Shown here piece by piece: positions 12,626 to 37,257 of a stretch of DNA of 64,000 bases. The DNA lies in the NCBI GenBank assembly GCA_964036045.1, contig OZ038401.1:30192492-30256491 (forward strand), written 5' to 3'. This stretch comes from Eutreptiella sp. 'Long Island Sound 2002'. Its lineage: Eukaryota; Euglenozoa; Euglenophyceae; Eutreptiales; Eutreptiaceae. The translations under genes and the position numbers were made by a program. How positions within the stretch are numbered: the first letter of the stretch is position 1; the number at the start of each line of letters is the position of its first letter. Below the pieces are notes generated by a model. The model was not told where the DNA came from. It saw nothing but the letters and a program-made list of their open reading frames with translations, and did no database searches.

Positions 12626-13059
12626 TGGACTACCTACTGCACCCAGCTCAACAACCCAAAGTTAGTGGTCACTACAACTTTGACCTTGGAGAGGGTGGCT
12701 TCGGCCCATTTCTTTCTTCATGTGTTGGTACCTCCATCCAAATTTGGATGCATCTGTGAGCAGTTTTCTCAGCCTGCTGTCTTTACCAGCCCGTGGGGGC
12801 AGCTACACGGAAGGCATTATGGCCGGTCGAAAAAAAGCCGCAAGTGATCGGTTAGATGGGCGAAATTTTGGAAGTTTACACTATGGGATGCAGCGTTCTA
12901 GGGCGTGGTGCGGAACCCCCCCAATTTTGGGTGTTGTTAATATGGTTGGAACCCGGAATTTCACATGTTACATGGGTGCACTATGATGCAACAATGTGCC
13001 TTCCATGTTTCGTTTGCTCGATATTGCCCGTTTTGCACTTTTTGCGATTTGATCTTTGT

Positions 13060-13212
13060 GTGCTCTAACTAGTTAGAACGGGGTTAGAACGGGGTTAGAG
13101 CACTAGTTATCGCGTGGGTTATCGCGCGATAACCTAGTTATCGCGGGGGTTATCGCGGGGGTTATCGCGCGATAACTAGTTATCGCGCGAGTTATCGCGT
13201 AGGTTATCGCGC
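13060..13212. repeat. E1 palindrome array 1 (5' end)
   Basis: Tandem TAGTTATCGCG / CGCGATAACTA units, including full 20-bp palindromes TAGTTATCGCGCGATAACTA, preceded by GTTAGAGC/GCTCTAAC units. It lies just upstream of a probable 3' splice site (pyrimidine tract, AG at 13,241-13,242) and of the oxygenase start codon, so it may be inside a 5' UTR intron. Confidence 0.85.
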
Positions 13213-13268
13213 TTCATTTTATGTTTCCCCTTTTCGCTTTAGCTCTCAAAGCTTTCATATTCTTCGTA

Positions 13269-15389
13269 ATGGCCCTTGCTGCTGCCCACGCTTGGTGCGA
13301 GCACCATCAAAAGCTCCTTGGGGTCCGTCGCCTTGGCGGTCCTGAGGGGTTTACGATGGGTGATGCCAATGTGAGGCGCCCTGTGGCGACCCGCTTTGAA
13401 CATGGTGTGGACTTTGGACTCCTTGTCCATAAGTCCCCCTTCATGGCGGACAAGCGAGACCCCCTGGTTCTCAGCAACTACATCTTCGAGTTGCTAGAGG
13501 TAAATCCAGGGGTTGCTGGATTTTTGATCCAGCTTCATACCGAGGATGTGGACGCGGTGGTGGAGTCCGTCACCGCTCATGCCGAGAAGGGTGCGGGGAC
13601 GAAGACGACCCTCTATGTGGGTCAGGAGGAGGAGGAGGAGGAAGTGGAGGAGGAGGAGGAGGATGCGGGGGGGTGGGGGGCTGGGGGGAGGAAGGAGAAG
13701 CCCCACAACCCCCTCATGATCAGTGTCCAGAAGGTAAGGATCCGACCCGGTAAGGGGAAGGGGAAGTCGGATGGTTGGTTCCCCCAACCCCTCACCCACA
13801 ACACCCGCCGGGTCTGCACTGACGACCCCGAAAACAAGCTCCCCATGCACTCCCTTTGCCCCACAAGGGAGTGGGAGCGTGAGTGGTATGGGGTCACCAC
13901 TCCCAACATTATTTCGGGGCAGGGGGTGATTCTTTTTCCATTTGGGGCAACACCCCCCCTTATTGGGGAGGCGGAGGAGGTGGTTGCCGCCGAGCCCTTG
14001 GGGGCCTTTAATAGGGACCCCAATGACCTTGTGCTCACGGTGGGGGGAAAGCTGGTGGTCAACCACCTCCTGGAACACGATTTCTTCAGTGACATTCAGC
14101 TGCAAAGTCTTTTGGATGATTTGGATAGGGTGCCTCTCTCAGAGAAGGCACCCATTTTCAATGAGAACCCCCCCATTGTCGGCAGGCCCCAAGATTCTGG
14201 GACCCGCCGCACATTGTATGGCAACTATGGGGGTGCCAACCACCACAAGCGCAACCCCCACAAGCTCCATGATCTGCCAGTCCTCAAAAGGGTGGCAGAT
14301 CGTGTGCTTGAGACCGCGAAGAAGACTGTGGTGGGGGGGGTCGGATGGAGCTGCACCATCCTTGACATGGCCGAAATTTCGAGCTATGACCACACCCCCC
14401 AGCACCTCCATCGCGACGCCCCCCCCTACACCATTCCTGAAGGCACATTGATTGTCAATTGCCTTAGTATGCTAACCCATAATCATGAGGAGGAGGATGG
14501 GTCACATTTTCTTTTCGTGCCCTCCAGCAGTTCGGGGTTCCCTGACCCTTGGGTGGAGAGGGCTGTGCCATTCAAGAGGGGCACTGCCTTTTTTTTTAAT
14601 GCCCTTGATGTGCACAGGGGGTCGGGGATTCCCAAGGCCTCCCCCATGGGGGTAAGGGACCCCCGCCTCATGGCATTTTTTGCCATTGAGCTTACCCAGG
14701 GGGGGAATCTTCGATTCCCCAACCTGCACGTGACGCAGTCCATTAAAAGGCCCCAGCTGGGGGCACTTGGTGGCCGGGTGGCCAGGACAGTCCAGTGTGA
14801 TGGGGCGGTTAGGTGTAGGGGGAAGGTGGTAGCCAATTGCTACGGATGCAATCGGCTGATTTTGTGCACCGCCCACAAAGATGGCCTTTGTGTGCCATGC
14901 CAGGAGGGGGAGGAGGTGGAGGGGGAGGAGGAGGAGGAGGTGGTGGTGGACCCCAATGGGGTCAGCATTGAGCAATCTGCTCAGTGCTTGCTCCCGGTGG
15001 GAACAACCACAGGGCATTTTTTGTTGTCGGGGTGGGGGATTGGGAGGGAGGTGATTGCCCCCCTCACTAATGAGGAGGCGGGGGCGGTCGCAGGCCACCC
15101 CGATCAGTGCCCCTTGGCCAAGGTGTGCCATGGGGAGGCACTGCCCTGGCCCACCTTGCAAGGGCATGTTGGGATTAAGGTGCCGGCGGGCACCATTTTG
15201 GTGGTGAGGAGGGGGTTGTATGGGGGAGTGGCAAGGGTGGCCCCCGGGGTGGAGGGGGTGGCCCAGGTGGTGGAGTGGCGGCAGGTGGGGGAGTATGCGG
15301 CCGTCACGGACTTCGTGTGGCTGCGGAGGCTGGGCCTGGTGCTGGACGACGCCAAGAAGGAGGGCCAAGGCATGTGTCCATGTCACCAG
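13269..15389 (+). CDS. E1 2OG-Fe(II) oxygenase with zinc-binding segment (exon 1)
   Basis: About 707 residues. The oxygenase signature is visible: H381-R-D383 (HLHRD), H449 (DVHRG) and R466 (RDPRLMAF), the HxD...H metal ligands and the 2OG-binding Arg of a double-stranded beta-helix fold, resembling phytanoyl-CoA-dioxygenase-type enzymes. After it come a Cys-rich segment (CDGAV-x-C ... CYGC ... CTAH ... CVPC), probably zinc-binding, and a final Cys/His motif (MCPCHQ). An acidic Glu-rich insert lies near residues 118-138. I prefer the ATG at 13,269: the ATG at 13,221 sits in the pyrimidine tract of a likely acceptor (AG 13,241-13,242), and E2 has a matching start. The frame runs to a stop at 15,393, but a GT donor follows CAG at 15,389 and the E2 homologue splices at the same place. 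The substrate is unknown; modification of DNA, RNA or protein is possible. Confidence 0.8.
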
Positions 15390-15429
15390 GTGTGAAAAGT
15401 TCCCACAACACCCTGCTCTAACCCCTGCT

Positions 15430-15600
15430 CTAACTAGTTATCGCGCTAGGTTATCGCGTTCTAACTAGGTGCTCTAACTAGTTATCGCGCTAGGTTATCG
15501 CGTTCTAACTAGTTATCGCGGGGTTATCGCGGGGGGTTATCGCGGGGGTTATCGCGCGATAACCTAGTTATCGCGGGGGTTATCGCGCGGGTTATCGCGT
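15430..15600. repeat. E1 palindrome array 2 (inside intron 15,390-15,630)
   Basis: TAGTTATCGCG and CGCGATAACTA units fill most of the 241-bp intron and stop about 30 bp before the pyrimidine-rich 3' splice site (AG at 15,629-15,630). E2 has an intron at the same codon with its own, different palindrome. Confidence 0.85.
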
Positions 15601-15630
15601 GTTTTTTTTTGTTTCTTTTGTTTTTTTCAG

Positions 15631-16856
15631 GCTACCATCTTGCAGCTGCCCCGTATCTTCGTCAAGGACGACGCCCAGGCAGCCGAGGCAGCAGGCGGAG
15701 CAGCAGAAGCAGCAGGGGCACGGCCCGCCAAGCCGGTGGCGGCCCGGTTGGAGCTGGAGGGGGAGAAGAGGCTGCCGGAGGGGGCGTCGTGGCGGTGGGG
15801 GGAGCCTGGGGATGAGGCCTGCAGGATGGGGGGGACGGGATGGTACCGGCAGGTCACCATCACCGAGAAGGAGGGGGGGGTGGAGAGGAAGACCAACCTC
15901 ACCCTCCCCTCCTATGTGTGGGTTGGGGGGGAAACGGCCAAGTGGCCGAATGCCGCAGAGGGGGAAACGGTTGCGGCTTTTTTGTGTTTGTTTGGGATGA
16001 GCGACCCCCCCCAAAAGGAAATCTTATTTCCTTTTGAGGGTGTGTTTTTCGTGGGAGGGGGAGTATACGGGGAGGGAAGTGTGGCAGAAGCTGCACAGGG
16101 GGGGGGGCATCCACCAGGTTGGTGGGTATGACCCCCCCCCCTTCTGTGGTGGACGCCACTGCCGATTGGGTTCGGCAGTATGCACCCAAGGGGGGAAGGC
16201 CGGGAAAAGGCCAGACGAAGCGGGGACCAGACGTGGTGGAGGTTGAGCCGGATGCCCCCCCCCCCCTTAGGGGTAAGGGCCAAACCCCCGCCCCCAAGCC
16301 CTCCCCCAAGCCATCGAAGGTGGCAAAGGTGGCGGCGGCCCAGCCCCCCCATGAGGCCCTGGACGTGGAGGCCTTGGGGGCCAGTGTGGCCACCCACGTG
16401 ACGGACGCTTGCCAGGTTTTGGTGGAGCAGGCGGCCGCCACGGGGGTCGAGGCCGCACTGGCCAAGGGTCGGTCGGCCGACCACAAGTCGGCCTTGGCGA
16501 AGGCCGAAAAGGCCCAGGGCAACACCCAGCGTGCCCTGGACCAGGCCCTCAACCTGGCCGCCAAGAGGGGGGAGGAGGTGGAGGCGATGAGGGAGGCCCT
16601 GAGGGAGGCCCAGGAGGGGAGGCGGAAGGCGGAGGTGGAGGCGGCCCAGCTTAGGGTGGAGGTGGAGGGGCAGCGGAGGAGGGGGGATGACCTCCAGCAG
16701 CGCTTGGGGGTGGCTGAGGCGCAGGTGCACATTCTCACAGCCTCACCTCCACCCTCAGTGCCTCCTTCACCGCCCAGCAGGGGCTGGCGCCGCAAGGGTT
16801 GCAGAGTCAGGGTAGCGGGAGTAGGAGTGGGAGCCAATGACTCGTGGGTTTGCTAA
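15631..16856 (+). CDS. E1 downstream exon: unknown domain plus coiled coil, one frame change
   Basis: Reads on in phase from the oxygenase exon (CAG|GCT). The first about 160 codons end at a TGA (16,129-16,131); the protein resumes one frame back at about 16,119 and runs to 16,856. The frame change lies between a 10-G run (16,098-16,107) and a 10-C run (from 16,132). The second part has a lysine/proline-rich linker and an Ala/Glu/Arg-rich heptad region (about 16,370-16,720) typical of a long coiled coil, followed by a Ser/Pro tail. The E2 counterpart (33,783-34,851) has the same order and also a frame change at a G run. A homopolymer indel, real or from sequencing, is the simplest reading. 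The coiled coil suggests oligomerisation or binding to the transposase, which is inference. Confidence 0.6.
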
Positions 16857-17342
16857 GGGGGTTGCCCAAGGGCATTTTTCGTGGGGAGGAGCGATATGGG
16901 GCCCAAGTGGACATGTGCCACTTCGGCCTCGTGGGAAGTGGAAACCCCAACCCCTCTAATTTTAGGGCGACCCACATGGCCGCTGCTACCCTCAGGCCTG
17001 CCCTCACCCCCTTGGTTGCAGACCTCAATGGGTATTGCACCTCCAATGCTCCACCATGGTTCACATGGTGTAGCATCCAAATTGTTCGCCCCCAAGGGAC
17101 AGACACCATGGGCCTCCACTCCCATTTGCGGGATGGGGCGCCCATGTACCTGCGGCTCACTTGGAAATGTGAAGTTGAGGCTCAGTTGGGGCTAAAACGG
17201 CTCATTTGGGGCTAAGTGGTGTTTTTCAAGGGGTTTCATATGAAAAGTTGTGGCTTTCGGGGTTGGGTTGGGGTTTTGGAATGTCCCCAAAGGGACACCA
17301 ATCCCTAGGCCAAGAGGATTTGACCGGGGGGGTTTCTTTTTT

Positions 17343-17512
17343 TCGACGGCTCAGTTGACTGAGCACCCGACTGAGCCGTCACTGAGCCGTCACTGAGCCG
17401 GCTCACTGAGCGCTCACTGAGCGCTCACTGAGCGCTCACTGAGCGCGCCAAATGGCTCAGTGAGCGCTCAGTGAGCGCTCACTGAGAGCTAATTGGGGGC
17501 TCACTCAGGGCT
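17343..17512. repeat. Foldback outer-left palindrome array
   Basis: Repeats of GAGCCGTCACT and the palindrome CAGTGAGCGCTCACTG and its half sites. The array is the mirror of 21,582-21,735. Confidence 0.85.
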
Positions 17513-19019
17513 CACTCAGGAGTTTCTCCCCCTTTCCGCCCTCTCTTCCCACCCTTGCTGGCCCACACTTCACCCTTTTCACACCAACATTGGTCCGCAG
17601 TTCTCACCACGTCTTTTCTCCAAGAACTTGAGCGTGCATGCACACATACATACTTGCATACATGTACCCGTGGCGACAAACACACAAACATCCAAACACA
17701 CACACTTCGTCAGGGACACAAATAGCCAAACATATACACACACATACACCATACACACGTCCACACACACATGCACATGCACAAATTGACAACCACATTC
17801 ATTCTTGTGTGCAATTATCTTGCGTGTACATAAACACATGGCCACATTGAACCATGTGAAGTGAAGGGCTAGGGAGAGATGGTTACGGGGTTGGGGTTCG
17901 GGGATATGAACCTAACCATTTGCGAGGGTGTTCCTTGTTGCCTCATGAAAATGGCACCTACCCACCCCATACACACACACACACACACCATGAAGCACAA
18001 ATAGGGCACAAAGGACATTGCTCGCTTTTGTGAGGTTGATCATACAACCATCGTGACCTACACCATGACACATTGATACCCCTCCCTCCTTGTCCACTCC
18101 CCTCCCCTTTCGTTATGCTGCGTTCCCCCGCTTCCCTCGTGCGTAGCCCTTCTCTTATCTTGCCTGTCCCGTCCCCTTTGTCCTACCTTTCCTATTTTTT
18201 GGCCATGGCATCACATGCATGATGGTGGCGGCAAGGATGATGACCTTTGCAGGTATGTTGTGCTATTATGTGTGTGGGTGCGTGTGTGCGTGCTTGCGTG
18301 CGTGTGTAGTTGTGCCCATGCGCATGTGCGCAGCTATAGATGGTTTGTTCGTTCTTGGTTTCTCTCATTTAGTGTGTTTGTATGTCTGCTTGTGTGTGTG
18401 TGTGGGGGGGGGGGGGGGTTGCATGGATCGATGCGTGAGTGAAGGTGTCTTTGTGTGTGAGTGGTTGCGAGTGTGTGACTGCGTTCTTTGGTTTCTGGTT
18501 GCCTAGGTTCGTGCGTGTATGTGGATTCGTGAATGTGTGTACGCGCAGGTGTGTGTGTGTGTGTGTTGCAGCTGTTGTTTTGGATGTTGTTGTTGGTTTT
18601 GGTGTTGTGTGGCATAGGCTTTGATTGTGTGCGCATAACATTGTGTTTGTGGCTGCAGACGCAGGTATGCTTGTGTTTGTGGTTGTGGCTGTGGTTCCGG
18701 GCTTGCGTACGGTTGTTGCCATGGCTGTTGTGGTAGCTGTCGTTCTTGGTGTGGTTATGGTAGTGGCTGTGGTTGCGGCTTTGGTTGTGGGTGTGGGTGT
18801 GGGTGTGGGTGTGTGTCTGCAAGCTGTGTTGTGTGTGGATTTGGTTGTGGTTGTGTCAGTGTGTGTGGCCCTGGCTGTGGCAAAGGCTGCAGTTGCAGCT
18901 TTCACTGTGGCTGCAGCCGTTCTTTGGGTTCAGGCTGTAGCTCTGGGGGGGGGTGGTAAAGGACTACAAAGAGGGGGGCTGAAATCACCATCCACCCCCT
19001 CCCAAAAAAGACCGCACCA

Positions 19020-19411
19020 AGTTTACAGTGACAGTGTACAGTGACAGTGTACAATGACAGTGTATAGTGAGAGCATACAGTGCGTGTAGAGTGACAGTGT
19101 AGAGTGCTAGTATAGAGACTTGGGCGTTGTGGCGGACGTACTGTGCGTGGGGATACATTCTATGAGACCTTGGGGAGTACAGTGTACAGAGTACAGTGTA
19201 CAGTGTACAGTGTACAGTGTACAGTGACAATGTACAGTGACAGTGTATAGTGACAGTGTGCAGTGGCAGTGTGCAGTGTGCAGTGACAGCGTACAGTGCC
19301 AGAATACAGTGTACCATGTACAGTGACAGTAGATAGTGACACCATTGACAGTGTACATGGACAGTGTACAGTGACAGTGTACAGTGACAGTGTACAGTGA
19401 CAGTGAACCAT
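19020..19411. repeat. TACAGTGACAGTG satellite, left arm
   Basis: Tandem units of about 14 bp (TACAGTGACAGTGT) with variants TACAGTG and AGAGTG. Its reverse complement occurs at 19,621-19,995 in the other arm. Confidence 0.85.
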
Positions 19412-19620
19412 GAGTGAGCCCTCACTGAGCGCTCACTGAGCCATTTGGCGCGCTCAGTGAGCGCTCACTGAGCCATTTGGCGCGCTCACTGAGCGCTCAC
19501 TGCGCCGTTTCGCGCGCTCACTGAGCGCTCAGTGAGCGCTCAGTGAGCGCGCCAAATGGCTCAGTGAGCGCTCACTGAGCGCGCCAAATGGCTCAGTGAG
19601 CGCTCAGTGAGGGCTCACTC
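19412..19620. repeat. Foldback central palindrome array
   Basis: Built from CAGTGAGCGCTCACTG joined by CCATTTGGCGCG/CGCGCCAAATGG spacers, symmetrical around about 19,515. This is the loop end of the large hairpin and is itself made of small hairpins. Confidence 0.85.
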
Positions 19621-19995
19621 ATGGTTCACTGTCACTGTACACTGTCACTGTACACTGTCACTGTACACTGTCCATGTACACGGTCAATGGTGTCACTATC
19701 TACTGTCACTGTGCATGGTACACTGTATTCTGGCACTGTACGCTGTCACTGCCATTGCACACTGTCACTATACACTGTCACTGTACATTGTCACTGTACA
19801 CTGTACACTGTACACTGTACTCTGTACACTGTACTCCCCAAGGTCTCATAGAATGTATCCCCACGCACAGTACGTCCGCCACAACGCCCAAGTCTCTATA
19901 CTAGCACTCTACACTGTCACTCTACACGCACTGTATGCTCTCACTATACACTGTCATTGTACACTGTCACTGTACACTGTCACTGTAAACTTGGT
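19621..19995. repeat. CACTGTCACTGTA satellite, right arm
   Basis: Reverse complement of the satellite in the left arm, slightly shorter. It is followed by a (CACCCA)n tract at about 20,190-20,255 and CA-rich microsatellites near 20,480-20,540. Confidence 0.85.
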
Positions 19996-20483
19996 GCGGT
20001 CTTGTTTGGGAGGGGGTGGATGGTGATTTCAGCCCCCCTCTTTGTAGTCCTTTACCACCCCCCCCCCCACAGCTACACCCAAAGAACAGCTGCAGCCACA
20101 GTGAAAGCTGCAACTGCAGCCTTCGCCACAGCCAGGGCCACACACACTGACACAACCACAACCAAATCCACACACAACACAGCTTGCAGACACACACCCA
20201 CACCCACACCCACACCCACACCCACACCCACACCCACACCCACACCCACACCCACAAGCAAAGCCGCAACCACAGCCACTACCATAACCACACCAAGAAC
20301 GACAGCTACCACAACAGCCATGGCAACAACCTCACGCAAGCCCAGAACCACAGCCACAACCACAAACGCAAGCATACCTGCATCTGCAGCCACAAACACA
20401 ATGTTATGCGCACACAATCAAAGCCTATGCCACACAACACCAAAACCAACAACAGGATCCAAAACAACAGCCGCAAAAGCTGC

Positions 20484-20516
<33 letters not shown>

Positions 20517-21581
20517 TGGCACACACACACACACACACCTGCGCGTACACACATTCACGAATCCACGTACGCAAACAAACCTAGACAACCGGAAACCAAA
20601 GAATGCAGTCACACACTCACAGTGACGCACAAGGACACCTTCACGCATGCATCGATCCAAGCAAGCCCCCCCCCCCCCCCCCGACTCACACACAAACATA
20701 CATACAAACACACTAAATGAGAGAAACCAAGAGGGAACAAACCATCCACACTTGCGCACATACGCATGGGCACAAGCACACACCCGCGAACACACACACT
20801 AGCACAACATACCTGCAAAGGTCATCGTCATTGCCGCCACCATCATGCACTCGATGCCATGGCAATAAATAGGGAAGGCATGGCAAGGGCTGGGCAAGGG
20901 GACGCGACAGGCAAGATAAGAGAAGGGGTTGGCATGGGGTAAGCGGGGGGATCAGGCATGGCAAAAGGGGACGGGGGGGGATAAGGACGGAGGGGAATGA
21001 GTGTGTCATGGTGTAGGTCACGATGGTTGTATGATCAACCTCACAAAAGCGAGCAATATCCTCTGTGCCCTATTTGTGCTTCATGGCGCGCGCGCCCGTG
21101 TGTGTGTGTGTGTCTGGGGGGGGGGGGGGTGCCATTGTCATGAGGCAACAAGGAACACCCTCGCAAATGGTTAGGTTCATATCCCCAAACCCCAACCCCG
21201 TAACCATCTCTCCCTAGCCCTTCACTTCACATGGTTCAATGTGGCCATGTGTTTATGTACACGCAAGATAATTGCACACAAGAATGAATGTGGTTGTCAA
21301 TTTGTGCATGTGCATGTGTGTGTGGACGTGTGTATGGTGTATGTGTGTGTATGTGTTTGGATATTTGTGTCCCTGACGAAGTGTGTGTGTTTGGATGTTT
21401 GTATGTTTGTCGCCACGGGTACATGTATGCAAGTATGTATGTGTGCATGCACGCTCAAGTTCTTGGAGAAAAGACGTGGTGAGAACTGCGGACCAATGTT
21501 GGTGTGAAAAGGGTGAAGTGTGGGCCAGCAAGGGTGGGAAGAGAGGGCGGAAAGGGGGAGAAACTCCTGAGTGAGCCCTGA

Positions 21582-21735
21582 GTGAGCCCCCAATTAGCTC
21601 TCAGTGAGCGCTCACTGAGCGCTCACTGAGCCATTTGGCGCGCTCAGTGAGCGCTCAGTGAGCGCTCAGTGAGCCGGCTCAGTGACGGCTCAGTGACGGC
21701 TCAGTCGGGCGCTCAGTCAACTGAGCCGTCGCCAA
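21582..21735. repeat. Foldback outer-right palindrome array
   Basis: CAGTGAGCGCTCACTG units and AGTGACGGCTC units; mirror image of 17,343-17,512. Confidence 0.85.
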
Positions 21736-22529
21736 AAAAAGTACCCCCCACCTTGAACCTTGACCAAGTGAGTATCTAAAACTTCTAAAAACATTAAATG
21801 CACATTACCTAGCATGCAAAACGCACAACAAACAAGCACAAAGACATCGCAATGCACAACTGAGCCCCAAATGAGCCCCAACTTCACATTTCCACTTAGC
21901 CACCAGTGAGCCGCAGGTACACATGGCGCTTATTGTGTGTGTGGGGTCTTTCACGGGGGGTGAGTTTTGGGTGGAGAGTGGTGGCCTGCTGAATCCCTCC
22001 ATGAGGGAAAAAAAGCGGCACACCCGTGTGTGCAAGGGTAGGGCGGTGGAGGGTTGGGCATGCACCGCCACCCCCCAAGCCCCGGTGTTGTTCAACACCA
22101 GGGCACTACACGCTCCATTGCCATGGGAGGGCGAGCGATGGAGCGTGATTTTTTATAGTGCGGGGGGGGTTCTGCACTGCACGCCTGTGTGGCGGCAGCA
22201 GCTGGTGTCCATGGGTTTTAGGGTGCCCAATGCTTCCTCTAACCCCTCCAGCTAGTGTAATTTGTGATTCGATTATTGTTCACTATTTCTATTTTTTCTG
22301 CTTTGGTGGGATGCCCACCATGGTTTGTCATTGTGTACTCTGAGGAGGGGCAACTAGCCCGGAACATGTCCATTAGACTGATTTGAATTTGTGATTGTGG
22401 CGCCATATACCCCGTGCTTGCACATTGTTGACATCTCCAGGTTTCCTGGGTGCAAAATCAACGTTTGTGAAGGTTTTAGGGTGCCCAACGCTTGCTCTAA
22501 CCCCTCCAGTTAGTGCGCACTAACCCCTG

Positions 22530-22690
22530 CTCTAACTAGTTATCGCGGGGGTTATCGCGCGATAACTGGGTGCTCTAACTAGTTATCGCGGGGGGTTATC
22601 GCGCTCTAACTAGTTATCGCGGGGGGTTATCGCGGGGGTTATCGCGCGATAACCTAGTTATCGCGGGGGTTATCGCGTGGGTTATCGCGT
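22530..22690. repeat. E1 palindrome array 3 (before the transposase exon)
   Basis: TAGTTATCGCG/CGCGATAACTA units with GCTCTAACTAG spacers, ending about 48 bp before a probable 3' splice site (AG 22,737-22,738). A short block with TTTTAGGGTGCCCAA and CTCTAACCCCTCCAG is found twice just upstream (22,216-22,257 and 22,467-22,508). Confidence 0.85.
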
Positions 22691-22738
22691 GTGTTTTTTG
22701 GGCCCTTGCTTCAAAACCCTCCCTCATTTCGTGCCCAG

Positions 22739-24417
22739 GTCCTCTTATTCTTCATGGATAGTGCTGTCAATGAGGCCCTGCGGGCTCTCAACACAGCTAA
22801 CCTCCGGCGGTACACCGATCTGCAGTGCCCCAAGGCCCGGCGGCGGCGTTTGAAGGCGGTTCAGCGGCTGGTGCGAGTTCTATTGGGTGACCCAAACGTT
22901 GTGTGTGGCACCAACACCAAAGGCGAAGTTTGTTTAAGTGGTGGGGCGTGCACTGCCCTGTCTGGCCCACTTGGCGGCCATCTTGCATTAACAGCTCAGG
23001 AGCATGAGGCCCTGAGCATGCTACGCATGGCATGCAGCATGCATCTCTCCCAACGGGCCCTTTTGCGAATGCCCCGCCGTTGCACACAACGGGACCTAAG
23101 GACCGTTCGGCAACGGATCATGCCCTACTTTCCCCAAACAACCATTGTAAAGTCTACCACAGGCCGCAATAGGGCAGCTGCCCATGTGCCTTTGCAATCA
23201 ATTGTGCAAAATGCAATATCTATGGCCCGAGTTATCTGATCGGGAAACCCCCCCCTAGTGGCGTTGCCATTGTTGTTATTTCAGTTGATGCGACTTCCTT
23301 GTGGAAGGCATCCTCTACCCGTGCGGATGTATGGGTTAATGTATGGGGGGGGGCAAAATATGCTTCGAAGGTGAAGCTATGGGCCTCATGGTTTTGCATG
23401 GATGGCGGGGATGAACAGGCTTTTTTGAGAAGCCTGGACATCTCCGCCAACCTCAACCAAGAGGTGAGGGATGTGGAAGAGGACGTTGTCCTCTTTCAAA
23501 ACCAATTTTTGACTTGCACTGTCATTTTGACAGGGGATGGGAAGGGGATGCAAGCAATGGGGGGGGCTGGGTCTAAGTGTTGGTTGTGCAAAGACCCCAA
23601 TGGGATTGTTGAGCAAAGGGGGGTGGAGTCCACCTCAAGATGGGGGGCATTCTTGAGAAGTGTGACCCCTGATAGGCGGCCGGGGGACTACCAACATGCA
23701 GCATGCCGCATCCTAAACGGCATTGCAAAGCGCATTGAGACCACCCTTCAGGCCCTCCCCCCTGGTAACCCTGGTAAGGCCCAAGCTCTTGCAGCTTTGC
23801 AGGCCTTCAAACAAGCCCTCAAGGATGAGACCTCAGGCATCCCTCTCAGGGAACGCCTCCCTTCGGCCTCGAGGGCCACAGAAAAAGATTTCGATCTAAC
23901 AAGCACCAAGGTTTTCCTAACCTCCCCCCCCTTCCAAAGGCAATTTGTGGATTGCCTCAAAGAGCATGTCCCCACATTGAGGACCCCTGGGGGACCTATG
24001 TTATGGGTTGTTGTGCATGTCATGGTGAAATGCATTGAGGGTTTGTATGAGCTTTGGAGGGTGAGGGAGTTGTACACTCTAACCCAAGTGGAACGCCACC
24101 GTGCGTTGACCACAAAATTTTCAAAAGCGTGGGGAGACTCAGGTTGGTCCCCCACCAGGTGGATCCATTGGTGCTTGGCACATTCCACCTTTTTTGCCGA
24201 GAAATGGAGGAACATTTTTCAGTTTTCCTCCATCCCAACGGAGTATCGGCATGGGCCTTACAAAAGGAGGCTCAAAAATTGTTTTAAGGGTTGGTCCTTG
24301 GTGAGGCCAAGTGTGTCCCTCCGCCACATGCACCATTGCATGTCCATGAACGCCCTGGAGCAAGTGCTTTTGGGACTGGAGGCAGCCAAGGCCTCAGACA
24401 TTGATGACTTTGTATGA
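22739..24417 (+). CDS. E1 RNase H-fold (DDE-type) transposase, frame-shifted
   Basis: Starts after a probable acceptor; ATG at 22,754. The first part (to about 23,238) is a basic N-terminal region; the core continues one frame back, from about 23,250 to the TGA at 24,415-24,417. The two frames overlap beside an 8-C run. Core motifs: ISVDATSLW (Asp codon 23,287), LTGDGKGM (Asp 23,536) followed by KCWLC, a C-x2-C insert, and IPTEYR (Glu 24,241) in a region rich in K/R and aromatic residues. Spacing is about 83 residues between the Asp residues and 235 before the Glu, suiting a transposase with an insertion domain between D2 and E. E2 has the same three motifs (SDATVF, SGDGKV + KCWNC, IPTEWR). 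I assign no named superfamily. The frame change, if real, inactivates this copy. Confidence 0.7.
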
Positions 24418-24486
24418 AAAACGACCACACATGCTTTGTGCCAAGTGTTTTGTGTTGTTTGTCCTAGGGAGGGAGGGAGGAGGGGT

Positions 24487-24601
24487 GCGCGATAACTACA
24501 CGCGATAACTACGCGATAACCGAGTTATCGCGCGATAACTAGCGCGATAACTAGTTAGAGCAAGGTGCTCTAACTGCGTTCTAACTCTGTTCTAACTGTG
24601 C
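24487..24601. repeat. E1 palindrome array 4 (3' end)
   Basis: CGCGATAACTA units and their complement followed by GTTAGAGC/GCTCTAAC units, a mirror arrangement of the 5' array (13,060-13,212). It lies between the transposase stop and the right TIR. Confidence 0.85.
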
Positions 24602-24801
24602 TCTAACTCTTTGACCCCCCCCCAAAAAAACCACCCCTACAATGAGGGTTATGTGGCGAAAGAAAGGGGATGGGGGGTTTTTGAGGGTGCTGAATCCATT
24701 TTTTTAGGTGGTTTGCCCCAAAATTGAGGGTAGGTGGGTGTTCCAGAAATTGCGTTCTAACTAGGGGTTCCGCACCACGCCCTAGAACGCTGCATCCCAT
24801 A

Positions 24802-27409: not shown

Positions 27410-27647
27410 GCTTGGCTTTGTTACGTGTGCTTCGCAGCCGATAAACGTAGCAAGTTCCCTTATCTCCAACGACCCGTTCATTGCCACGAACACCGGAGCC
27501 ACTCTATGTTCTTTGGTACTCTCGGTGTTGCCGCTTTTGCTATTTTTGCGTATCTCACCTTCGCCTTCATTGCCACGTGCCCATCACTCCAACCTCCGGA
27601 CGAAGTATACGATTGTGTGTGCGTTGTAGCGGTACTATAAAGGCACC

Positions 27648-29000: not shown

Positions 29001-30631
29001 TGCCTGCACGATGCTCCCATACAACTGCGGCAGTGTGGAAAGTGCTATGGCAGCACATGTCCCCGTTCCTTACCATGCAAACTGGTCTCTTTGCCCTCAC
29101 GTTCGCCAACTGGGACAATATCCGCGCTGCCGGCGCATTGACCCTGTGCTACCGCCAAGTGTGTACTGTCCCCCCGAACAACTTGTTCAAGATATCCTGT
29201 GCAATGCTGCATGACAAATCCAATCACCATGTTCGCCGAGAATGGTGGGAACCGTTCTATGATTTCTTTCCCGTCCTGGTAACGAGCCTCCTGAACATAC
29301 GACAACCGTACACGTGCGCCCGATCCATAAAAATCTTTGTTCACCGCGCCCTCACCCATGACTGGGTTCCCAGTGACCTATGCCATACCATCTGTGATTT
29401 TGCTGAACGACAAACCGGAAAAACACTACCCACCCCCCGGGAAACCTGTACACAGGCGCAACCACACCCACCACCATGCCGAGAAAAAGCCAAGGGCAAA
29501 CAGAAAACAGCCACCCAATGCCCCCTGTCTAACGAAACATGGCACAAAGTTCACCCTGGCCGGCGATCGGGAAAAACGACTATAATGCCTCCTCTGAAGC
29601 CTTTTTCCTCTGAAACCCTCTGGGGTAATCTCCAATTGACACACCGAGCACGAAAGCAGGGGTCCCGAAAGCGAAGACCCCGATGGAAAAGAGCAGGTCC
29701 CACCCCAGATCGTGCAGCGGTGTTCAACACCCTGGTTGACTTGTTTCCTGTCCCCCTCCCTTCGCCCTCCCCACCTCTCCCAACCCTCCTACCCGAGCTA
29801 CCGTGGACACCAACAGTGGATGACCTCATCAACCGGCCGTTGCCTGACCTGGTGGCGCTGTTACCAATCCTGCAAGCGCGCCAAACTTGGCTCCAACAGA
29901 AACACACTGAATTGGCCGGTGCGGCATTTCAGCTCGAGAACACACTGTCCCCACCGACAGCAGGCCTAGTGCCTCCACAGACTACCGGTTCCGTCAGTTT
30001 CCAGTTTGATGACCCGCTACCACCGAATCCACACGAATGGTTGTCACGGTTCCATGCATATGTCCTCTCCCACCCCCGTGTCCAATCTTTTTGGTCCACG
30101 TACGCGTCACGTTATCATTGTGCCACCTGGCAGTCCATCAATTATGACCTCCTCAGTTCATTTGCCATTGATGCACGCCGAGTAGTCTCCAGCATTCCAC
30201 ATGACTCGTGGAGACCACAGTACAATTGGATTTTGTCGTTGACCCAAACCCTTAGTGCTGATACGGTGATTGATGGAGGCCCACTACCGCCTGATTTTCC
30301 CCAAACTTATGTGACGCTTAATGATGCCCTCAACCCTGTTTCCTCTGCCCCGAGTTGGATGAACTCTGCGCCCACCGTACCCTCTATGAATGCAGTCTGG
30401 TGCGTGCAACCGTCCACTCCGACAACTGCTGCGCAATGGTTCTTTGACCGCCTGTCCTCCCAATTACCGACGACTATACTCATAGTTGTCCCCACGGGAC
30501 ATGCACTGCAAAATGACCTGACCAGCCACCCCTCTGTCTCCCTGCTCTCTGAAATCCCCCACTTCACTGCCATACCACAATCTTTGAACATGCCGTCATC
30601 CCCCTACTCCCTACCTGTCACCCTGTTCTTA
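28997..30631 (+). CDS. PLE ORF2, N-terminal region (upstream of E2)
   Basis: Begins with ATGATG overlapping the ORF1 stop. 545 codons, no stops, up to the E2 insertion at 30,632. The sequence is Pro-rich in places with an LPELPWTPTVDDLINRPL segment and an aromatic-rich C-terminal half (WLSRFHAYVLSH, WRPQYNWILSL). No known domain is recognised. It joins in frame, after removal of E2 and a 2-bp duplication, to PGAYWFTFAP at 37,208, so E2 entered an open reading frame. Function unknown. Confidence 0.65.
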
Positions 30632-30835
30632 TGGTGAGCATAACCTGGCATACCAGGAATACCTGGGAGTATACGGGTAAAAAAGGGGGTTTTGGGAGAA
30701 AGGGGTATGTGGCATGTACAGGTGGGTACGAATGTATAATGCACAATGCATGCATAGGTGGGTTGGGGAATACCTCTAGTTTGCCAATTGTGATGGTCAA
30801 TGTTGTGTTTGAAACTACCCCATTTTGGGCTCTTG

Positions 30836-30935
30836 GGGTATACGGCCGTATACTCGAGGCTCCAATACCTCAGTATACGGCCGTATACTCTGGAGTATAC
30901 GGCCGTATACTTGGAGTATACGGCCGTATACTGGG
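30836..30935. repeat. E2 palindrome array 1 (5' end)
   Basis: Four copies of GTATACGGCCGTATAC. It is followed about 200 bp later by a strong 3' splice site (AG 31,140-31,141) just before the oxygenase ATG, so it may lie in a 5' UTR intron. Confidence 0.9.
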
Positions 30936-31160
30936 GGTATTTGTTTGCACCATGTGGTTGTTTCAAGTTGAAAAATTCCATTGTTGTGCCTTTTGTGCCC
31001 ATCTTGTTGCATGCTTTGCCTTTGCCCAACAATTGCACACCACTTGAAACCAATCTAGGCTCATACTTCACTCAAGATTGCAATGTATGTCTCCATATGT
31101 GTCCATTCCAATCCATATTATGTTGCTTCTTGCTCTCCCAGGCCCTCTTTTTCTGCCACC

Positions 31161-33224
31161 ATGACTGATGCGGGCACTCATGCCTTGTTGAAGAAGTGGG
31201 CCGATGCCGTAGCTCTCCGCACAGTGCACAGAGGTGTTTACAGCCCCGACAGCACACGCACCGTGTCTTGGCCTTCTCTTGAGAATTGTGCTCGGTCCAC
31301 CTTGGACACCCCTGTGGCCCTGGTGAAGCTAACGCACCCCGGCGTTGCCCAACCCCACAGCCTCACTGACCCTTTGTTGTCGTTGTTTGACAACAACCCT
31401 AATCTGCAAGCTATTGTGTTGCAGCTCCATGATTCGGATGCCCGCGCTGTCGTGGAGCATGTTAAAAAAAGCTGTGGGGGGCCCAATAGGGGGATGAGTT
31501 TGTATTTGAGGGAATGGGAGATGCAGGATGGCTCTCCGGGGATTCATGTCTCGGGGGACGTGGCCGCTGGCTGGCGCAAATGGGAGTGCAAGGCCCAGCA
31601 AGTGCAGCGGGGGCATTGGGAGGACACCGCCCCCCTCTACTCCCTCCACTCCCAATCGCCATGGTCCTGGCATGCCGATTTGCAGGGCCACACCCTCCCC
31701 ACCTGGTACAAGGGTACTGGGATGCACCCCTCCCTTTTCTTCCCCCTCACCACCACCCCCCTTTTTGGTGTTGAACACCATCGTGTCTCCATCCCCGTTG
31801 ACGTCGTCGATCATCGTCATGTCGACGACCTCAAGGATTTCAAGCAATGGGGCCATGCTTTCCAATCTGGCTTCATTTCTGTCAGTTGGATGGACAAGCT
31901 TCAGGATGAGTATGGGGAACTTAGGGCAGATGCGGGGCTCAATATTTTTAATGAGGATTGGCCCGCCGAGACTCGTGCAGGGGACAGTGACACCCGCCGC
32001 ACAATGACTCCACCGGAGGGGGGTGCAATGTACAGTTTCGCAAGGGAGGTCCTCATACCCCACTTGGAGACTCATTTGGGTTGGAAGTGTCCGGTCGTGA
32101 ATGTTACCACCTTTATTGTGGTGAAGGCCGGTACAGTGGATGTGGAAAAAAAACAGTGTTGGCACCGTGACATTAACCTCAGGTATGTTGCCGGCCCGGA
32201 CCAACACCATGTTATTTGCTTGTTTCCGATGTTCTCCCCCACACCCGATGATGGTTGTGCTGGGGATTTTGTGGTTGCATCCCACACGGGCCTCCCGGAC
32301 CCTTGGGTGGTGGCCCCAATGGCCCCATTGGACATCGGGGATGTGTGGTTGGGCAATGCACTAACTGTGCATCGCGGAGGTATTTGCCCTACCACAAACC
32401 CCCATCGGCCCCGTGTTTTTGGTTTCATTTCGGTTGGTACCTCCAGGTTCGACTACAACAACACTTGCCCTGTTGTTGTTCCCCCTTGGGCCGGCGAAGC
32501 GGCTGCATCCCCCGAAGGGTCTCAAGGCCCTCATGCCACTTGTGGTGCAGTTGGTTGTGAGGTGTTGTTAGATGTGAGTGATGCTACCACAGTTTTTTGT
32601 GTTACATGTGGTAACGTGCCATTGTGTGCCACCCACGCCCTGGAGGGGCAGTGTGGTGCCTGTGAGGAGGGCGCTTGGAATCAGGGTGAGACAATGACAC
32701 AACACAGTGGTGTTGCATGGGGTCGTTGTCCGGCCCCACTTCAGTTCTACATGCCCGTTGATGGGGCTACTTTTTTTGCAGTTCATGAACATTTGTCCCC
32801 TAGCCCCCTTCGAGTTGGGGTTGAGGGTCACCCTTCATATGAGGAGTGCCCATTGCGGCAAATGCATGCTAACCCCTTGCCTTCTGTGGGCTCGGCTGGC
32901 ACTTTCCTTGCTTGTCCCCCCGGTTCATTGGTGGTTTCGCGGGGTTTGATTGGTGGTGTTGCTTTGGCTTCCACCGATACCACAATTGGCGGGGTTTTGC
33001 ATTGGTTTGCACTTGGGCACAAGCACCACCTCATGGATGTTGCACTGGCGGAGAGCTATGGTTGGGTGAAGTGGTGGCCATTCAAGACGGTTTCAAGAAA
33101 GAAGAAGTCGAAGCCGAAGCCCAAGGCGAAGTCAAGGAAGGGCAAGGAGAAGGCCGGAGAAGAAGATGAGGACGTGGAGGAGGAGGAAGAGGAGAAGCAA
33201 GAGCTGTGGTGCATCTGCAATCAG
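31161..33224 (+). CDS. E2 2OG-Fe(II) oxygenase with zinc-binding segment (exon 1)
   Basis: 688 residues from an ATG in a good context (GCCACCATGA). H335-R-D337 (CWHRDIN), H404 (TVHRGG) and R418 (HRPRVFGF) form the metal and 2OG-binding set. The surrounding pattern (HxD, then VASHTGLPDPW, then GDVWLGNALTVHRGG) is like the phytanoyl-CoA-dioxygenase group. A Cys-rich segment follows: CGAVGCEV ... FCVTCGNVPLCATHA ... CGACE. The C terminus is basic then acidic (Lys-rich, DVEEEEEE) and ends with WCICNQ at a GT donor (33,225). It aligns along its length with the E1 protein, both starting near the same point and splicing at the same codon. All key residues are present, so the domain looks intact. The substrate is unknown. 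Confidence 0.85.
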
Positions 33225-33531
33225 GTATTTGTGGGAACCGGGCATGGGTTGAACTGTGTTGTTGTTATTCATTAAGTCCCATTTATCTCAAAAGGTAGGG
33301 TCACTGGTGGGTTTTTTTGTTTGGCCTGTCTTCAGCGCCTCCCTATATGGTTGCAGTTCTTCAGGTTGAGTTGAATTGAATTGATCATCAACCTCTTCAA
33401 CTTCTTCCCAGGATTCTTCAATGGCCTACACATGTTTTTGCATGTTTGAGGGCAGTGGGGTTTGAACCAGGAACGTTTCGGTTGCAAGTGTAGCATGCAT
33501 ACCTCTCACCCACCCAGTGCCATGGTCTGGG

Positions 33532-33712
33532 AATACGGCCGTATACCTTGTGTATACGGCCGTATACCCACGGTATACGGCCGTATACCCCCAGTATATG
33601 GCCGTATACCGCGAGTATACGGCCGTATACCTGCCCACCCATTTTGAGTATACGGCCGTATACTCCGAGGTATACGGCCGTATACTCGGAGGTATACGGC
33701 CGTATACTCATA
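33532..33712. repeat. E2 palindrome array 2 (inside intron 33,225-33,782)
   Basis: Eight copies of GTATACGGCCGTATAC (two with one change) in the second half of a 558-bp intron, ending about 70 bp before the 3' splice site. Some copies are spaced at about 21-22 bp, two helical turns. Confidence 0.9.
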
Positions 33713-33782
33713 GTATTTGTTGCCAATTTCGATCTATTTTGCCTAGTTCTTTGTTAGAATTCCACCCTTTCTTCCCATTCAG

Positions 33783-34851
33783 GTCCAGTATGATCCCTGG
33801 CCACTGCGGAGCATCACCAATTACGAGGTGGCCGAGCCCGAGGTGTCGGAGTTGGTGGCGCCAAAGGCTGCCGCAGGACAAGTGATCTCCGGTCGGGAGT
33901 ACGTGGACCCCATTCCTGTGGGTCGGGGGGATGTTGCCAGTGCGCCCTCCGACATGGCGTGCACCACTGGCAAGGACACGGGATACTATTCCCGTTTGAA
34001 TGTCCGTGCCAGTGGTGCACTTTACGACATTCGCCTGCCCATTAGGAGCAAGAGCTCCGGGAAGGTGCGGGTTTTTTTGAGCACCACGGGGGAAAAATGG
34101 AGCATTTCGGACTCCATTATGGTGCTCCAAAGTTTTGGGGGGGGAGCCTGTCCCCGGGGAGCACTCCCTCGCCCTCCAGGCCGAGTTGGCCTCGAGGGCG
34201 GGGAAACAGCTTGGGGGGAGGGGGCTGAAGCGGGCTCATGATGAGCCCGCTGAGCCAAGGGCCACCCCTGCACCCACCCCCACCCGGAAGGCCCCCAAGC
34301 CTTCCGGGTCTGCTGCTGCTGCTGTTGCTGTTGTCTCGGGGGGGCTTGAGGGGTTTGGGGGGGTGGGGGGGATTGAAGCAGCTGCCCGCCGTGGCACATG
34401 CGAGGCCCTGGGGGACCTCGATGTGCCCAGCACCGCTGACATTGTCAGCGGTGTTGTGGCGGGCTTGGGGAAGTCCCGGCTGAACATCTCCCGAGAGATC
34501 GGGGAGTTCAGCCGGACTTCCCTGACCTCCTTGAGGGAGGCCAATGGCTCCCTCAAGGAGGAGCTGAAGGTTGCCCATGCTGAGGGTGACGCCAAGGACA
34601 AGAGGATTGCGGACCTGGAGACCAAGTTGGCCGATGCCACCACAAGTGCCCATGACTGGCACCTCAAGGCCAAGGAGTTGGAGACGCAACTCCAAGCGGC
34701 CAAGGCCAACGAGGAGTGGGCGAGGTCCATTGTGGCCCATAGTGTCACACGGAGTGCACCCCCACCCCAAGGGTCCGGGAGTCAGGGCAGTGGGAGTCAG
34801 GGCAGTCAGGCCGCCTCCCCAGCACGTGGCCTCCCCCCAAAGCCGCAATGA
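33783..34851 (+). CDS. E2 downstream exon: unknown domain plus coiled coil, one frame change
   Basis: Starts in phase after the intron (CAG|GTC). About 120 codons encode an unknown domain (VQYDPWPLRSITNY, then GEKWSISDSIMVLQ). At the 8-G run (34,137-34,144) the coding frame moves by one, to the frame that ends at TGA 34,849-34,851. The second part has a basic Pro-rich linker and a heptad-like region with alternating Leu/Ala and charged residues (about 34,530-34,730), then a Gly/Ser/Gln tail. It is the counterpart of 15,631-16,856 in E1. An indel in the G run is the simplest explanation. Confidence 0.6.
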
Positions 34852-34879
34852 CTACCCCCATCCAACCCCGCCCTTGCAG

Positions 34880-35294
34880 CTTTATGCCGAGAGTTGGTGT
34901 ACTGCAAGGTGCACATCTTGGGTGTACAAGTGCACAATGTGCAGTTTGGGGCTACAGGGACACGCAGGCAGGGGAAGGATTGGCGCCGTGCGCGCTTGTG
35001 CAGCGGCAATGAAAGGCAAAGGGAGCTAATTTGCCTTTCAAATGCACATGCACATGCGAATTTTCCAAGGTGGTTCCATTGGACTACCATTCAAGTGGTA
35101 CAATGCGATACTTCACAAAGAATGCCGGGCCATCGCCATATGAGGGATCCTTCTCCGCTTTCCGCCATCTGCGTTGTCGGGGCGCACAGTGGTGGGGAGG
35201 TCTGTGTTGAAACAGGTGGAGTGCTCCATAGTCCCATGCAAGGGACCCCGATGCGGTTGGATGTACATGGAGGTGGTGTTGTGGATGCGTAAGA
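34880..35294 (+). pseudogene. E2 remnant of the second 2OG-oxygenase-like domain
   Basis: Begins after a good acceptor (CCCGCCCTTGCAG). One frame holds FHWTTIQVV, GHRHMRDPSPL and VVGAHSGGEVCVETGG, matching WCSIQIV, LHSHLRDGAPM and VGSFTGGEFWVESGG of E1. The part with the distal His and the Arg is missing or reduced; comparison with E1 suggests a deletion that fuses this region to the transposase N-terminal sequence. It is followed at once, in another frame, by the transposase. Confidence 0.5.
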
Positions 35295-36661
35295 CCCTCA
35301 CACCTTACCTGTCCAAGGGGAGGGTTCTGGAGGTGGCCACTAAAGGGGGTACCCGGACATGTGGGGTGGTGGAATTGCATGATATTGTCACCACCATGGT
35401 TGCATGTGCCCATGCCGAAGACAGCATTCGGAAGTATGAGGAGAATACATATTTGGCTGTTGTAATCTGTTCTGATGCCACTGTTTTTCATAATGCCAGT
35501 GCCACACGTTGTGACGTGTTTGTGGACCTATGGGATGATAGGGGGGCACACCATGATGGTCAGGCATGGGCCTCTTGGTGGGTTTTTGATGGGGGGGACG
35601 ATATGGCCCATCTGCAAAGGATGGATGCCGTGGGGAAATTGAATGACCAAGTCAAAAAACTTGAAGCCGAGGGCGGCATAGAAATTGGGGGCACTCCCAA
35701 AAAATTATTGTGTTTTAAAAGTGGGGATGGGAAAGTCATGATGTCGGGTTCGTGTGGGAAATGTTGGAATTGCAATCTCAAGTATGACCAATTTCAAGCC
35801 CATTTGTTTGCAATTGCAGATTTTCCAGTGCTTCCTCGCATTGGGTCCCTTATGTCTTGCATCCCTCCTGTCCGCAATGTTGGAGATGTGGCACATTGTT
35901 GTGCAAGGGTGGGGACAGGCATTGGGAAACGTCTCAAGGACAACGCCCGCACATGGGGTTCACCAGGAGCTCTAAGGGCCGTGTCCCATTTCATTTCTAA
36001 CCTCCGGCAAGAAGCAAAGCACATCCCTGTGGCTGAGAGAGTGATGCGTGCTCCCTCGAAAGAGAAGGAACACACTCTCGACATTAACGCCTCCCGTCTT
36101 TTTTTCGAAACACCTGAGTTGCACGCCGAGTTGGTGCGCATTGTTGCAATGTATTGTACCCATGTTGTGAAGTGGGAGGGCAACAGGTGGCTCAAAACCA
36201 GTGCCGCCCTGCACCTCATGTTGCAGGCCTGTTACTATATGCAAAAGATTTGGCGCCATGTGGGTCCTGTTCCCATGGATCAACGCCAACGTTATGCATC
36301 CATGGTTACACAATTCACCAAGGCATGGGGGGCATTGGGGTGGAGTGTTCCGGTTTGGGTGCATTGGGTGGTGTGCCACAGTGGGGCACACCTCCAAAGG
36401 TGGGGGAATTTTATTAAGTTTTCCTCCATTCCCACGGAATGGAGGAACAAAAGTTTTAAAATGGACATCCGCCATTGTTTTCAAGGGTGGAAGCTGAGCA
36501 AGCCTTATGTCACCCGATGGGGACTAAGGCATGCTCTGCACCTGGATGCCCTTGATTGGGGCATCCGGTTGTGGTTTGGGGAAAAGGGTTTGGGTAGAGA
36601 GGGGATCAAGTTTGGCATGCAACGCATGCGGAAGAAGCATCGTGCACCAAAGCACATGTAG
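35174..36661 (+). CDS. E2 RNase H-fold (DDE-type) transposase
   Basis: Uninterrupted frame of 495 codons to TAG at 36,659. Only the part from about 35,270 aligns with E1, so the first codons are probably not original. Motifs: VVICSDATVF (Asp codon 35,473), KSGDGKVM (Asp 35,726) followed by GKCWNC, and SIPTEWR (Glu 36,437). Conserved blocks shared with E1 include KFSK/QFTKAWG, W.HWVVCHS.H and CFQGW. The core is intact, unlike that of E1, but the N-terminal, probably DNA-binding, region is lost. Nuclear action on the element ends is the expected role. Confidence 0.75.
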   Translation: MSGRTVVGRSVLKQVECSIVPCKGPRCGWMYMEVVLWMRKTLTPYLSKGRVLEVATKGGTRTCGVVELHDIVTTMVACAHAEDSIRKYEENTYLAVVICSDATVFHNASATRCDVFVDLWDDRGAHHDGQAWASWWVFDGGDDMAHLQRMDAVGKLNDQVKKLEAEGGIEIGGTPKKLLCFKSGDGKVMMSGSCGKCWNCNLKYDQFQAHLFAIADFPVLPRIGSLMSCIPPVRNVGDVAHCCARVGTGIGKRLKDNARTWGSPGALRAVSHFISNLRQEAKHIPVAERVMRAPSKEKEHTLDINASRLFFETPELHAELVRIVAMYCTHVVKWEGNRWLKTSAALHLMLQACYYMQKIWRHVGPVPMDQRQRYASMVTQFTKAWGALGWSVPVWVHWVVCHSGAHLQRWGNFIKFSSIPTEWRNKSFKMDIRHCFQGWKLSKPYVTRWGLRHALHLDALDWGIRLWFGEKGLGREGIKFGMQRMRKKHRAPKHM

Positions 36662-36911
36662 GTATATATCATGTGATGTGCAATATGCGTAAGTGTGTAT
36701 ATTAGGTATATATAACATGGGGAAGTGGATCACATTTGACATTTCGGATGGGACATCAAACAAGGTTGCTTCTTGTGGTCTTCTGCTTTGCTCATATGGT
36801 GCTCTTTTGTGTGTACAATGTGTTTGGGGGTTGCAGGGTCATGAGTAAATGCAAGGGGGAGGGGTAGGTGATGAGAATGGTGGCATGGGTGGAAGGTAGA
36901 AAGTCCCCGTA

Positions 36912-36970
36912 TACTCCAAGTATACGGCCGTATACTTCTGAGTATACGGCCGTATACTCCGAAGTATACG
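36912..36970. repeat. E2 palindrome array 3 (3' end)
   Basis: Two full copies of GTATACGGCCGTATAC and one half copy, between the transposase stop and the right TIR. Confidence 0.9.
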
Positions 36971-37257
36971 GCAAGAATACTTCTCCAATACTTCGAGTAT
37001 ACTGACAAATACCTCAAAAAGTGTAGATTGCCACACACAGGTGTGGGTGTATGGAATTGGCTTTCCGGTTTTTTGACCCCCCCCCCTATTTTCAGGGTGC
37101 TAAACTCATTTTTTTATATCCCATGGGCACACGGAACGACTAGGTACATGTGCCAAAATGGCTGTTTTGGGGGGGTATTCTTGGTATGCCAGGTTATGCT
37201 CACCAGACCTGGCGCATATTGGTTCACCTTTGCCCCCGCATCAAATTGTAAGTATGC

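Follow-up and report, generated by a model that had tools for sequence, protein, structure and literature searches.

A RAG1-like transposon family of Eutreptiella carries a putative 2-oxoglutarate oxygenase gene and branch-specific palindrome arrays

The closest described relatives of the elements reported here, in design, are the TET+ ESTA transposons of Pucciniomycotina fungi, in which an oxygenase gene lies beside the gene of a RAG1-resembling, CMCT-type transposase, and which produce TA target duplications (Kojima 2025, PMC12730594, in the parts drawn on here). The same parts of that source characterize the CMCT clade by the residues D-D-E, with C(2)C and H(3-4)H between the second D and the E, and by target duplications of 2-5 bp. 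A separate strategy is described for Arabidopsis VANDAL elements, in which the element-encoded VANC protein binds the motifs of its element and causes loss of methylation (PMC5735166, in part). Together with PMC8226300, these are the papers on parts of which we rely. Here we analyse a stretch of 64,000 nucleotides (the window) from the euglenophyte Eutreptiella sp. 'Long Island Sound 2002' (GenBank assembly GCA_964036045.1, contig OZ038401.1, positions 30,192,492 to 30,256,491, forward strand), which contains two elements, E1 and E2. They represent a CMCT transposon that has an oxygenase not recognisably of the TET/JBP group and private palindrome arrays, a combination that, by analogy, suggests an element that may chemically protect its own DNA from silencing.

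An original prediction, made from the letters of the window, had proposed two elements sharing an oxygenase, a coiled-coil exon, a second oxygenase-like domain and a transposase. Terminal repeats and coordinates could be established for both (Table 1). Read as stop-to-stop frames, both have the order oxygenase, coiled-coil open reading frame (ORF), second-domain ORF and transposase, all on the plus strand. The E1 terminal repeats (12884-12919 and 24764-24799) are perfect over 38 bp when the flanking TA is counted; those of E2 (30632-30663 and 37174-37205) extend over 32 bp, start with TGGTGAGCATAACC and have one mismatch. Identity between the two branches is 25% for the oxygenase (654 positions, E 9e-27), 31% for the transposase (374 positions, E 6e-60) and 31% for the second domain. 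Since the same gene set is found in two branches so far apart, the association is either old or repeatedly selected. We are highly confident that E1 and E2 are one family of cut-and-paste DNA transposons of the CMCT clade.

The transposase, which the original prediction had called DDE-type and could not place, has an RNase H-like DDE fold that is RAG1/Transib-like over some 400-430 residues in a fold search, and shows the CMCT arrangement of D-D-E with intervening C(2)C and H(3-4)H (DAT..GDGK..CWxC..HWxxxHS..PTE). A KDZ (Kyakuja, Dileera, Zisupton) identity was the first idea and was dropped on the fold search and the TA duplications. These duplications were established across 30 transposase loci: the right end reads CCA|TA in 27 (24 distinct flanks), the exceptions being the window copy of E2 (L001), flanked by GA, one locus with an altered end (L009) and one without a recognisable end (L014), and the left end reads TA|TGG in all three loci where it is in view (L032, L039 and L041). 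E1 too has TA on both sides, which establishes TA as the target duplication and TGG..CCA as the termini. Insertion without target duplication, an idea that came from the window E2 flanks, was dropped in view of the TA flanks across the 30 loci. The TA duplication falls within the 2-5 bp of the CMCT clade; the termini differ from the 5'-CA..TG-3' that the consulted part of PMC12730594 gives for most cases. A RAG1-like transposase with TA duplications is the ESTA combination, and by likeness of features, including TGG..CCA inverted repeats, the element appears closest in design to that fungal lineage.

Both branches are multicopy. In the genome surveyed (2.28 Gb, 2205 contigs), at least 61 matches to the E1 oxygenase were scored, of 6486 candidates, and at least 85 to the E2 transposase, of 6135; many of the latter matches share an open frame of 541 residues. 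The window copies are damaged, E1 by a 4.8-kb foldback insertion that cuts the second domain, with frame breaks besides, and E2 by a deletion of about 830 bp relative to other copies, so that the second domain lacks its end, the transposase lacks its start and a palindrome cluster is missing. Two E2 copies, L033 and L045, are more complete, with 746 and 732 residues stop to stop in exon 1, a single open frame of 387 and 384 residues in exon 2 and, in both, a second domain of 204 residues and a transposase of 541. When 20 of the 85 E2 transposase matches, mostly the top-scoring ones, were extracted at greater length, the transposase was accompanied in 19 by the oxygenase region, whole or partial (blastn pieces above 300 bp). 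The exception, L042, is a transposase end alone. Among the others, a portion of the oxygenase survives in L032, L039 and L041 are internally deleted, and the similarity of L050 starts inside the oxygenase. The oxygenase and transposase database clusters, from ENA contigs of about 2 Mb, have 151 (P0001) and 107 (P0008) member sequences; tblastn confirmed no relatives in the viral_contigs and genome_contigs sets. The expected family, in which an oxygenase gene with the HxD..H..R set travels with a transposase, is thus found in many copies with shared ends. The original prediction would have fallen had the two genes never occurred together between inverted repeats, and they are linked in many E2 copies.

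Between L033 and L045, the ratio of nonsynonymous to synonymous differences per site (pN/pS) is 0.09 for the transposase (Fisher p 0.002) and 0.27 for the oxygenase (Fisher p 4e-5); when the window copy is compared with L033, it is 0.12 for the transposase and 0.35 for the oxygenase, and with L045 it is 0.18 and 0.27. The first oxygenase is under purifying selection. Its HxD..H..R set, the motif of the 2-oxoglutarate (2OG)-Fe(II) superfamily, had been pointed out in both copies and is seen in the alignment of E1 and E2, where H369xD371, H438 and R452 (E2 numbering) are invariant between branches. It is intact in all 18 well-covered E2 sequences (of 21; 8 distinct), none of which has a stop codon.

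Profile searches give modest support to a PhyH-type 2OG fold for this protein. The E1 core matched the Pfam models PhyH (PF05721; 13.8 bits, E 0.073, cut-off 22) and 2OG-FeII_Oxy_3 (E 0.072), both below cut-off. Against PDB, a profile of the core had as top match 9wyc, named only 'Oxidoreductase' (E 0.0026), followed by TlxJ (7vbq, E 0.26), an Fe(II)/alpha-ketoglutarate dioxygenase that we take to be of PhyH type; the HxD and the distal H are aligned in both, and unrelated strictosidine synthases begin at E 0.44. With a longer profile, TlxJ (E 0.0093) and 9wyc (E 0.012) were the only two matches at E <= 10, again with the HxD aligned. These results bear on whether the oxygenase is a very divergent TET/JBP protein and the element an ordinary relative of TET+ ESTA. 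The TA duplications and RAG1-like transposases described for TET+ ESTA (PMC12730594, in part) fit such a relationship, as does the HxD..H set, which is common to TET/JBP and PhyH-type groups. Yet the 2OG models seen in Pfam are PhyH and 2OG-FeII_Oxy_3, no TET/JBP model appears among the matches (E <= 1, and E <= 10 with HMMER filters dropping most weak matches), and the best PDB profile matches include no TET chain. We regard this alternative as unlikely.

In both branches exon 1 stops at one matching point, in CAG|GT, and exon 2 begins in phase after a CAG acceptor rich in pyrimidines; an intron between them is probable. A CxC at the exon 1 terminus suggested the start of a PHD finger, an idea given up since the exon appears to stop at that point and the intron shows no continuation. 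An MBD-like domain in exon 2, an idea formed by eye, is supported by no profile. The second conserved domain has in both branches H-x-H-x-R-D, a G-G-E turn, a distal H and the arginine of GER. Its layout, judged by eye, makes it a candidate for the end of a 2OG double-stranded beta-helix; the position of the iron-ligand Asp in HxD..H..R is His in both branches. No Pfam or PDB search matched it to a 2OG family; against PDB, the one match of its profile was a glucanase (E 0.87). Compared with each other, the profiles of this domain and of the first oxygenase domain, both shallow, showed no detectable similarity. The original prediction thus stands for the elements, their order and the first-oxygenase motif; its second 2OG-like domain is a conserved ORF of both branches in which no 2OG fold is recognised.

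The non-coding parts of both elements are marked by short palindromes. E2 has 14 sites of GTATACGGCCGTATAC against 0.00 expected, and E1 has 7 sites of GTTATCGCGCGATAAC against 0.01 expected, with up to two mismatches allowed in each case. Exact palindromes lie at four places in L039, L046 and L049, namely 5' of the oxygenase, in the intron, 5' of the transposase and near the 3' end, and the E1 clusters occupy the same four places. Among other E2 copies, L043 lacks the third cluster, L041 lacks the intron cluster, and some are cut at the 5' side of the extracted stretch. With splicing as predicted, all 29 half-sites of E2 fall outside coding intervals, as do 38 of the 40 in E1, the other two being 5' of the first ATG of the transposase frame. 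Elsewhere in the window there are no E1 half-sites and two E2 half-sites, at 16063 (inside E1) and 39163. Half-sites of both branches fit, by eye, GTWWWCGS. Each branch has its own CpG-containing palindrome at four matching places of its non-coding DNA, which is also the kind of element-specific motif array found in VANDAL. These palindromes might instead be sites of the transposase or of transcription factors, subterminal and internal, with the oxygenase acting elsewhere or without sequence choice. Such a role is quite conceivable, if rather doubtful: there are clusters near both ends, where binding sites are usual for DNA transposons, as well as 5' of genes, but in both branches one cluster lies in the probable intron, far from the ends, and cut-and-paste transposition does not need internal sites.

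It is a reasonable if tentative idea that an enzyme of the element alters DNA, RNA or chromatin and so would help it to escape silencing or to transpose. The VANDAL-like layout of the palindromes is the basis of the mechanism that we propose tentatively, giving it somewhat less than even weight. The oxygenase/coiled-coil protein would dimerise and, on the palindromes or close to them, would oxidise a silencing mark, either a modified base or a chromatin mark; this would keep the element's genes expressed or its ends accessible, and the transposase would move the element. A stronger version, in which the dimeric coiled-coil oxygenase would be a sequence-addressed epigenome editor that reads private CpG palindromes and oxidises the mark there, palindrome and reader having changed together between E1 and E2, seems to us improbable; on that reading, the second conserved domain may bring in a different chemistry through its HxH site. 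The oxygenase might also act on a protein, RNA or small molecule without any role in silencing, given that PhyH-type enzymes mostly hydroxylate small molecules. Metabolism would however bring little to a selfish element, and the gene has been kept under selection in two old branches, which makes this a poor candidate.

Several observations weigh against a palindrome-guided oxygenase. Profile evidence for its fold is weak: the whole oxygenase ORFs matched no 2OG family in Pfam at E <= 1, and the E2 core matched no 2OG model, just an irrelevant 7tm_2 (E 0.066), so that the phytanoyl-CoA likeness of the original prediction is weakly supported, in Pfam by the E1 core and not by the E2 core, while its transposon with an oxygenase and a DDE transposase holds. 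The AlphaFold model has a predicted local distance difference test score (pLDDT) of 29.6, unusable for fold, which leaves the fold putative; the low confidence probably reflects a want of diverse relatives. Exon 2 matched no recognised DNA-binding domain in Pfam, which makes palindrome binding a guess, and its joining to exon 1 by splicing is predicted. Between L033 and L045, pN/pS is not significantly low for exon 2 (0.46, p 0.08), nor is it for the second domain (0.55, p 0.25). For exon 2, the window copy gives 0.49 against L033 and, on few changes, 1.43 against L045. Exon 1 is gapped in L039 and L041. Finally, among the at least 61 listed E1 oxygenase copies, many, at about 96% identity, have in common a frame of 738 residues that a single TAG interrupts. 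This in-frame TAG, and the fact that gene capture is common in DNA transposons, would fit an oxygenase gene that was captured as a passenger and does nothing for the element. The pN/pS of the oxygenase, the catalytic motifs kept in every well-covered E2 sequence and the conservation of the gene across E1 and E2 all contradict this view, which is already disfavoured and which we consider very improbable. As an observation of its own, the one-TAG copies look as if a subfamily with this codon had multiplied, either by mobilisation in trans or because the codon is tolerated.

Table 1. Coordinates of the features of E1 and E2 in the window.
Feature	Position	Strand	Remarks
E1 transposon	12884..24799	+	Terminal inverted repeat TGGGATGCAGCG..; both flanks TA; multicopy
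E1 target duplication, left TA	12882..12883	.	Flank reading
E1 target duplication, right TA	24800..24801	.	Flank reading
E1 5' palindrome cluster	13118..13176	.	GTTATCGCGCGATAAC; 2 exact copies, further half-sites nearby
E1 oxygenase exon 1	13269..15389	+	HRD, H, R; Cys-rich segment; weak Pfam PhyH, 2OG-FeII_Oxy_3
E1 putative intron, palindromes inside	15390..15630	+	CAG|GT donor, T-rich CAG acceptor
E1 exon 2	15631..16856	+	C-terminal part long and heptad-like; reading frame broken near 16.1 kb
E1 candidate second oxygenase domain, first half	16859..17146	+	HSHLRD
Foldback insertion splitting E1	17147..21919	.	Ends TACCTGCGGCTCAC / GTGAGCCGCAGGTA
E1 candidate second oxygenase domain, second half	21926..22252	+	LH..GER
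E1 palindrome cluster 5' of transposase	22539..22689	.	
E1 RAG1-like transposase	22754..24417	+	Frame break near 23.2 kb
E1 3' palindrome cluster	24488..24610	.	
E2 transposon copy, internally deleted	30632..37205	+	Left flank TA, right flank GA
E2 5' palindrome cluster	30838..30931	.	GTATACGGCCGTATAC; 4 copies
E2 oxygenase exon 1	31161..33224	+	H369xD371, H438, R452 (numbered from 31059); Cys-rich segment
E2 putative intron	33225..33782	+	8 palindromes at 33531-33707
E2 exon 2	33783..34851	+	Domain without assigned family, and a coiled coil; reading frame broken near 34.14 kb
E2 candidate second oxygenase domain, truncated	34852..35289	+	HRHMRD
E2 RAG1-like transposase	35290..36661	+	N-terminus gone in ~830 bp deletion
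E2 3' palindrome cluster	36920..36957	.	2 copies

The surroundings of the two elements are rich in other repeats. The foldback within the E1 second domain has long inverted arms and flanks CCCATG/CACATG. Immediately left of E1 lies an inverted repeat (12229-12437) with 103-nt arms, 75% complementary and 3 nt apart, in which an inner 64-nt pair is 92% complementary. The E2 insertion breaks an ORF of another element (28949-30637 / 37206-38178). Further on, a third palindrome, GGCCGAAATTTCGGCC, occurs in 12 exact copies at 39302-45282, several of them about 70 bp apart, grouped around three ORFs without Pfam family (39987-41915, 42220-43086 and 43557-44873). This region interrupts sequence that by eye resembles a Penelope-type reverse transcriptase (38179-39306, 45664-46641). 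It is possibly one more nested element whose non-coding parts hold palindromes; a search for its ends did not find them. Direct repeats of about 575 bp (26835-27409 / 46755-47328), 99-100% identical in three pieces, bound a large retroelement (by eye Penelope-like, with a GIY-YIG-like segment) within which E2 and the GGCCGAAATTTCGGCC element are nested, and 25-bp satellite arrays lie on both sides of it. ORF 27630-28997 had no Pfam match above the curated cut-off, nor did the proteins of E1, E2 and two database relatives pass any. Searched singly against PDB, the proteins matched nothing relevant, the two RNA polymerase delta chains at E 0.19 being matches to an acidic stretch.

How does this element compare with known systems? 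It shares its transposase fold with Transib, RAG1-RAG2 and ProtoRAG, but RAG1/Transib systems have 5-bp target duplications and CACWRTG-type ends, whereas E1 and E2 have TA, TGG..CCA ends and extra oxygenase genes. No RAG2-like protein was noticed, no search having been aimed at one. KDZ elements with TET/JBP genes are likewise DNA transposons with an oxygenase; they differ by their KDZ transposases and by target duplications of 8 bp (Zisupton) and 7 bp (Kyakuja), against the TA and RAG1-like transposase of E1/E2. Arabidopsis VANDAL elements also have element-specific short motifs, repeated in intron, intergenic and terminal non-coding DNA and differing among relatives (PMC5735166, in part). 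They are MuDR-type elements, whereas E1 and E2 encode an oxygenase, and palindrome binding is proposed for the latter by analogy. To our knowledge, VANC has no known oxygenase domain.

In the literature that we searched, judged by titles and abstract starts and with subscription journals, Repbase and supplementary files outside the search, we found no report of an E1/E2 element or of a transposon-carried phytanoyl-CoA dioxygenase, and among the papers listed only PMC12730594 dealt directly with oxygenase-carrying transposons. The oxygenase of TET+ ESTA is TET/JBP, whereas that of E1/E2 resembles PhyH weakly, has a Cys-rich segment and is encoded with a probable intron and a coiled-coil exon; the candidate HxH domain and the palindrome arrays go beyond the fungal design. 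The family adds a RAG1-fold transposon type with TA duplications, and its arrays allow targeting to be examined directly, through binding assays and methylation maps at base resolution. If our proposal is true, transposon-carried oxygenases extend beyond the recognisable TET/JBP group, and one element joins two anti-silencing strategies known separately, the transposon-borne oxygenases of fungal TET+ elements and the private motif arrays of VANDAL/VANC.

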